DNA from: a virus
Length of the DNA stretch: 23,847 bases
IMG/VR virus record: IMGVR_UViG_3300010883_000473
Span: 1-23,847 of that record
Strand: one strand, 5' to 3'
Under the pieces are notes generated by a model. It did not search any database. It saw only the letters and a program-made list of their open reading frames with translations, and had not been told where the DNA came from. Shown here one piece after another: positions 1 to 702 of the stretch. The first letter of the stretch is position 1; each line of letters begins with the position of its first letter. The position numbers and the translations under genes are program-made.

Positions 1-588
1 TCCGAAGACATGGGTGCGATCGTCATGCATGGAGACAGGATCAGACAGGCAACAGGCGCACACGTTGCCTTCATTCACCACAGTGGCAAAGACAAGGCAA
101 TGGGGGCACGAGGCCACAGCAGCCTGAGAGCAGCAACAGACACCGAAATTGAGGTGGTGCCGGGGGAAGACGCGTCGTGCGCCAGTGTCGTTAAGCAAAG
201 AGAGTACGAATCCGGCCAAGAATATACGTTTTCCCTGCTTCAGGTGAAGGTTGGAACGAATACCAGAGGCAAGGAGATAACGTCATGCGTTGTCGAGGCA
301 TCTGATGCGCCGGCACCCAAGCAACGCAATAAGAGGGTCGGTGGCAAGAACCAGAAGACAGTCCTCAAGGCTCTCAAACACGCAGTCAGCGCAGAAGGCA
401 CACCCAAGCTGACGGGGGTTGACCTTCCACCCCTGCCATACGTCACCGAAGACGCGCTCAGAGCAGCCGTCTATAGGAAGCTGGCAGGTGACGAAAGACA
501 CAAGGCAAGCAGGTTCAGTGAGGCACTCGATTCGCTCATAAATGATGACCATGTTAATCGTGATGGAGAGAGAATATGGGTGTGTTAA
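1..588 (+). CDS. RepA-like AAA ATPase (replicative helicase-type), 3' part only
   Basis: The reading frame is open from base 1, so the gene begins upstream and only the last 195 residues are present; the ATG at base 10 is internal. The visible N-terminal part (GAHVAFIHHSGKDKAMGARG, then SSLRAATD) is the conserved end of the RecA-fold core of RepA/AAA_25-type phage ATPases, where a His-His-Ser and a G-R/H-SSLRA-D stretch follow the Walker B strand. Walker A and B themselves lie outside the window. After about residue 100 a basic linker (PKQRNKRVGGKNQKT) leads to a C-terminal domain of about 90 residues that looks like the winged-helix tail usual in these proteins. The family is expected to load at or unwind phage replication origins in the cytoplasm. 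The gene is followed directly by a repeat-rich gap that could be its target. Family assignment is good; exact role (helicase or primase-helicase partner) is inferred. Confidence 0.75.
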   Translation, partial: SEDMGAIVMHGDRIRQATGAHVAFIHHSGKDKAMGARGHSSLRAATDTEIEVVPGEDASCASVVKQREYESGQEYTFSLLQVKVGTNTRGKEITSCVVEASDAPAPKQRNKRVGGKNQKTVLKALKHAVSAEGTPKLTGVDLPPLPYVTEDALRAAVYRKLAGDERHKASRFSEALDSLINDDHVNRDGERIWVC

Positions 589-603: not shown

Positions 604-702
604 CACCGAAAAGCCCGTTTTACCACCGAACGGGAAAAACGGTATATCCGGGAATTTAACACCGAAAACACCGAATTACCTTTAGGTATTCGGTGTTCGG
701 TG
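604..702. repeat. Cluster of six CACCGAA 7-mers (iteron-like)
   Basis: CACCGAA occurs in direct orientation at 604-610, 624-630, 660-666 and 669-675, and inverted (TTCGGTG) at 689-695 and 696-702. The first two sit inside longer imperfect direct repeats that begin CCCGTTT (596-610 and 614-630). CCCGTT 614-619 can also pair with AACGGG 629-634. Isolated CACCGAA copies occur in nearby coding sequence (141-147, 444-450) and sporadically elsewhere in the window, but nothing approaches this density. Clustered short repeats next to a RepA-type gene are typical of replication iterons or of operators for a late/early switch. Which of the two applies cannot be decided from sequence alone. Confidence 0.7.
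660..702. promoter_or_regulatory. Long bulged inverted repeat upstream of the 190-aa gene
   Basis: Bases 660-680 pair with 685-702 to give about 18 base pairs with a TTTA loop (681-684), interrupted by an AA bulge at 667-668 and a one-base T bulge at 676-677. Both arms are built from CACCGAA units, so the hairpin may simply be two direct and two inverted protein sites. There is no T-tract after it, so it is not a standard intrinsic terminator. It lies 45 bases before the ATG at 748. Confidence 0.55.

Follow-up and report, generated by a model that had tools for sequence, protein, structure and literature searches.

The window, by which we mean the whole stretch of DNA analysed here, is a virus record of 23,847 bases (IMGVR_UViG_3300010883_000473) whose start falls inside a helicase gene. 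Positions 1–588 (+ strand) hold the 3′ part of this primase-helicase gene, the 5′ end being cut by the window start, and encode the end of the RecA/AAA_25 core and a C-terminal domain. The product matches phrog_2850 (6e-21), phrog_906 (DNA polymerase/primase) and AAA_25 (4e-5). An earlier note on this DNA had called the gene RepA-type; given these AAA_25-type primase-helicase matches, the name is apt if it refers to the RSF1010 RepA helicase but not if it refers to a plasmid iteron-binding RepA. Full-length relatives combine a primase domain (Prim-Pol or, by a weak match, TOPRIM-like) with the AAA_25 helicase and the C-terminal domain, and in some the N-terminal part is without any family match; from these relatives, the primase part of the window's own gene would lie outside the window. 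AAA_25 matches in 12 full-length relatives range from 1e-32 to 1e-47, and none of the 12 has a D5, DUF927 or Primase_Cterm match. The helicase of one relative (L012) has RSF1010 RepA as its sole PDB sequence match (1g8y, E 2.6e-4, residues 268–436). The 1g8y and AAA_25 matches identify a RepA-like RecA-fold core, only the end of which is contained in the window.

The C-terminal 98 residues (residues 98–195, encoded at 292–585, + strand) are modelled by AlphaFold2 as a winged helix-turn-helix (wHTH) domain (pLDDT 84.9, m07abfef9c93a), which we propose as the reader of the iterons described below. Structural neighbours of the modelled domain are wHTH domains, including the CAP, MCM and ORC winged helices, at Z values of 8–9 that sit close to the tool's stated background, and no Foldseek E-value for wHTH reaches significance by itself (best 0.024). 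The fold was therefore assigned from the topology together with the many wHTH neighbours at Z 8–9. A PDB sequence search with the C-terminal profile gave no relevant match. The predicted recognition helix H3 comprises residues 165–181 (model residues 68–84) and its codons occupy 493–543 (+ strand).

An array of the 7-mer CACCGAA starts 16 bp past the helicase stop codon. A position count confirmed the six copies at 604–702, four direct and two inverted, that had been reported earlier: iterons 1 (604–610), 2 (624–630, 20 bp after iteron 1), 3 (660–666) and 4 (669–675) are on the + strand, iterons 5 (689–695) and 6 (696–702) on the − strand, and no further one-mismatch copies lie within the array. 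The window as a whole contains 13 copies against 3.5 expected (shuffle maximum 8, 100 shuffles). The seven copies outside the array are scattered singles, as the same reader had observed, and there is no second CACCGAA cluster in the window of the kind that had been named as a reason for doubt. Within the 250 bp past the stop codon the top 7-mer count is six, where shuffles average 2.07 and reach a maximum of 3.

Folding divides the array into two palindromic blocks. The first (590–658) carries iterons 1 and 2. The second (660–702) consists of two iterons, a short CTTTAG core at the dyad (680–685, + strand) and two inverted iterons, and forms a near-perfect hairpin around ACCTTTAGGT, with outer arms 660–666/696–702 and inner arms 669–675/689–695; since all four of its copies are arms of one hairpin, they are not independent. 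A long AT-rich stretch is not seen. The core is the proposed opening or start site, a proposal that draws on the enrichment of CT(W2-5)AG and the inverted flanking words (see below). Downstream of the array follow a gene for a protein of unknown function (748–1320), a DUF6456 protein (1330–1839; Pfam 2.7e-10, above the cut-off), and terminase, head-tail and head genes.

Relatives of the helicase C-terminal part were fetched from IMG/VR and the DNA past their stop codons was examined. A clustered 7-mer with at least five copies within 300 bp downstream of the helicase gene is present at 150 of the 165 viral loci that have at least 200 bp downstream (the searches overlap and some contigs were fetched twice; the non-redundant set at < 90% identity has 60 members). 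Within 2.5 kb, at least five copies are found at 156 of the 165, and the other nine have four. In upstream control stretches at least five copies occur in 1 of 133 and four copies in 20 of 133. At some loci other sequence intervenes between the helicase gene and the array. Bacterial genome contigs, including Novosphingobium olei and several other Alphaproteobacteria, have at least five copies at 24 of 37 loci, and in some of them the C-terminal domain of the helicase looks different. Nearly all relatives carry their repeated 7-mer in direct and inverted copies, and more than 30 different words are used, among them CACCGCA, TACCGCA, GCACCGA, AACGGTG, CGGGACA, CCGGACA, CCAGACA, GGAGACA, TGCAACA, CGTAACA, GTATAAA and CTACAAA. 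Thus the layout is conserved across the helicase relatives but the word is not. The persistence of the cluster in relatives, which the earlier note had set as a check, is borne out for the cluster and not for its word, so that a search based on CACCGAA would have missed it.

In the cultured Roseobacter phages CRP-821 and CRP-811, whose genomes are complete, the word is present in 10 and 11 copies, respectively, in this one cluster only. The paper on these phages lists the helicase as a core gene, and in the parts of its text covered by a word look-up no description of the array was found (PMC12629253). Microcystis phage Mae-JY30 and Caulobacter phage GB2A encode related helicases and have no cluster of at least five copies in the stretches read; the arrangement is therefore not universal in the wider superfamily. 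A DNA-level search of phage records gave no match. Seven loci (L206–L209, L212, L226 and L228) encode AAA_25 helicases with a different-looking C-terminal domain and still have a word array directly downstream, in several cases with a CTAAAG or similar core. A second cluster of 4–5 copies of the same word is found upstream of the helicase stop codon at L057:4757–4789, L193:6392–6435 and L170:2494–2537, those of L057 and L193 lying inside the helicase gene, no more than 310 bp from its end; these clusters are possibly a second binding array.

A CT(W2-5)AG core is present in 61 of 97 arrays compared with 62 of 460 control stretches, and a CTWWAG-type core is absent from about a third of the arrays. 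Word copies lie on both sides of the core within 45 bp at 51 loci, and at 49 of these the closest copies on the two sides of the CTWnAG core are inverted relative to each other. The distances from the core to the nearest inverted copies are mostly 2–6 or 12–17 bp, about one helical turn apart, and direct copies are often 9–10 bp apart, a geometry compatible with proteins that sit on one defined face of the helix. An ungapped palindrome score was also tried; because it separated arrays (median 8) from controls (median 6, maximum 13) poorly, the core motif and the orientation of the flanking words were used instead.

Word similarity was compared with helicase identity in 12-residue windows by partial Mantel analysis of 57 non-redundant loci, with the rest of the fragment controlled. 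Over the RecA core the partial correlation stays close to zero; it shows a smaller peak at about residues 109–123 and is highest at residues 163–174 (partial r 0.359, permutation p 0.0005); none of 2000 permutations, which leave the relatedness among loci in place, reached this peak (maximum 0.21). Winged helices normally contact bases through the N-terminal half of the recognition helix. The covariation peak coincides with the N-terminal half of H3, where residues 166, 167, 169 and 170 give the strongest signal. Analysis of 28 disjoint nearest pairs recovered the same peak positions and is no more than suggestive (partial r 0.28, p 0.07), and at the 19 loci that share the downstream gene family of the window the partial correlation at the helix is small (r 0.165, p 0.027).

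Individual pairs of word and helix motif illustrate the relationship. In three loci the word TACCGCA is paired with KHKWT(N/S)F or NHKWTSF. CACCGCA occurs with KHKSTAF, CGCAACA with KKRATW and CGTAACA with KKRVTW. The window (word CACCGAA) has an SRF motif, which is also present at loci with GCACCGAA and ACCCGAA. The helicases of CRP-821 and CRP-811 are 96–100% identical over residues 401–600 and about 70% identical in the C-terminal 100 residues, and one of the two phages has the word GTATAAA, the other CTACAAA. From the sequence comparisons and the predicted fold we infer that the C-terminal domain of the RepA-like AAA_25 helicase would be the reader of the word.

We conclude that the array is probably a replication origin, which the helicase itself would recognise through its C-terminal domain. 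An origin had been suggested before, and comparison now argues for it through the linkage to the helicase, a geometry that is kept while the word changes, and the covariation with the recognition helix; replication itself is what we infer from these. An inflection of GC skew, which had been put forward as a sign of an origin, was not seen at the array in the window. In two complete circular relatives the skew tracks the gene strand and not the array. GC skew thus gives no information on an origin here.

We propose the following mechanism. The upstream product would be a primase fused to a RepA-like (RecA-fold, SF4) hexameric helicase with a terminal winged-helix domain, and this domain would read CACCGAA. 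Several helicase subunits would occupy the word copies in both orientations, and pairs of inverted copies would set two helicase assemblies face to face around the CTTTAG core. The core would then open and each assembly would be loaded on one strand, followed by unwinding and priming. Binding, core opening, self-loading and a bidirectional start are putative steps of this scheme.

The evidence favours an origin over an operator, a terminator or an RNA element. The operator, an alternative raised in the earlier note, has lost ground. In this reading the array would control the transcript that follows it, and the helicase C-terminal domain or a neighbouring product would bind there. The array directly precedes gene 748–1320, its inverted and direct sites are typical of operators, and the word correlates with the identity of the downstream gene (r 0.49), as expected from shared ancestry. 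However, across 59 loci the array is kept although the ORFs that follow it belong to 24 families, a sigma-70 scan found no promoter-like site in 500–900, and the downstream product shows a weak partial correlation with the word (0.105, p 0.09, 19 loci); the covariation points to the upstream helicase instead. We consider an operator unlikely.

The strong predicted folding of the array region (z = −6.1 as RNA, 585–750; −4.4 as DNA) would fit a transcription terminator or a structured RNA element, for instance a small RNA or a riboswitch-like leader, but such an identity is very improbable. A T-run follows the palindrome in just 2 of 97 loci and mismatches in the arms show no G-T enrichment (G-T 10 versus A-C 18), and thus neither a terminator nor an RNA stem is indicated. 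The stem sequence is set by the word, copies of which also occur as direct repeats. There is no Rfam match near threshold, a terminator scan of the window region gave no terminator-like site, and a tRNA scan found nothing. A packaging (cos/pac) or recombination site is the least credible identity, since although the terminase genes of the window lie within 3 kb downstream of the array, the array comes after the helicase gene and its word covaries with the helicase. In CRP-821 and CRP-811, moreover, the terminase genes are at 28–30 kb and 30–32 kb of the record and the arrays at 3.3 and 4.4 kb, although this distance shrinks to about 3 to 5 kb on a circular record.

The proposed origin recalls several known systems. 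RSF1010 RepA shares a homologous helicase core with the family described here; in RSF1010 a separate RepC binds the iterons and a separate primase does the priming. The phage P4 alpha helicase belongs to SF3, and the pRN1 helicase is of a different family from the AAA_25 family here; the pRN1 origin is not known to have iterons. P4 alpha unites primase, helicase and winged helix in one protein that binds origin repeats (PMC4234260). A P4 alpha-type C-terminal winged-helix DNA-binding domain is predicted here as well (by pLDDT 84.9 and wHTH topology), whereas in place of the SF3 helicase domain there is an AAA_25/RepA-like core, joined to a primase domain of Prim-Pol type or, by a weak match, of TOPRIM type. 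In pRN1, the Prim/pol-helicase ORF904 has a C-terminal winged helix and an essential stem-loop lies directly after its gene (PMC4234260).

In SaPI/PICI the origin directly follows the 3′ end of rep, and Rep recognises it with its C-terminal domain (PMC7581432, PMC6092414), and Cch2 of SCCmec binds repeats downstream of its own gene (PMC7581432). Our array resembles both in lying 3′ of a helicase gene with short iterons in sets; an origin directly 3′ of an initiator helicase gene is a likeness by position alone. The SaPI/PICI and Cch2 helicases are, however, of the DUF927 or D5/Primase_Cterm type, while the one here is AAA_25 (RSF1010-RepA-like) and not SF3-like. In PICI origins an AT-rich stretch separates two sets of iterons, where we find a short core of the CTWWAG type at the dyad, accompanied by inverted copies. 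As the DUF927, D5 and SF3 helicase types were not found, we do not assign the array to the SaPI/PICI or P4 systems. In the PLE satellites of Vibrio cholerae the DNA-binding domain of the initiator RepA covaries with the origin iterons, and the origin-directed nuclease Odn may select for change (PMC8263062). PLE RepA binds DNA through a RepA_N domain and its iterons are about 30 bp long, unlike the 7-mer array here. By analogy, selection by an origin-directed nuclease is a possible cause of the fast word turnover in our family. We found no description of the arrangement for AAA_25/RepA-like helicases in the open-access papers searched, and we claim no priority.

We lean towards a broader view in which, in a large phage family, the SF4 RepA-like primase-helicase serves as its own origin-recognition protein and loader, and the word has been replaced dozens of times as the recognition helix changed, leaving a natural catalogue of paired readers and words; origin-targeting satellites or nucleases may have driven this. 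If this is true, the design in which a helicase reads its own origin, already known for other helicase families from SaPI/PICI, P4 and SCC elements, extends to SF4 RepA-like helicases of tailed phages. It would also allow the origins of uncultured phages to be located by a rule that needs no fixed sequence. The many pairs of word and recognition helix would be material for a DNA recognition code, and they make the cause of the fast diversification of origin words directly testable.

Two further features of the window, read by eye, lie downstream. Between the DUF6456 and small terminase genes, a CCCCG...CGGGG inverted repeat followed by TTTCTTTTT (1915–1950) resembles an intrinsic terminator. 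At 2640–2690, upstream of the large terminase and immediately ahead of the HNH gene, an AT-rich stretch is followed by GGGGGGGGGTACCCCC and could be a cos-like site.
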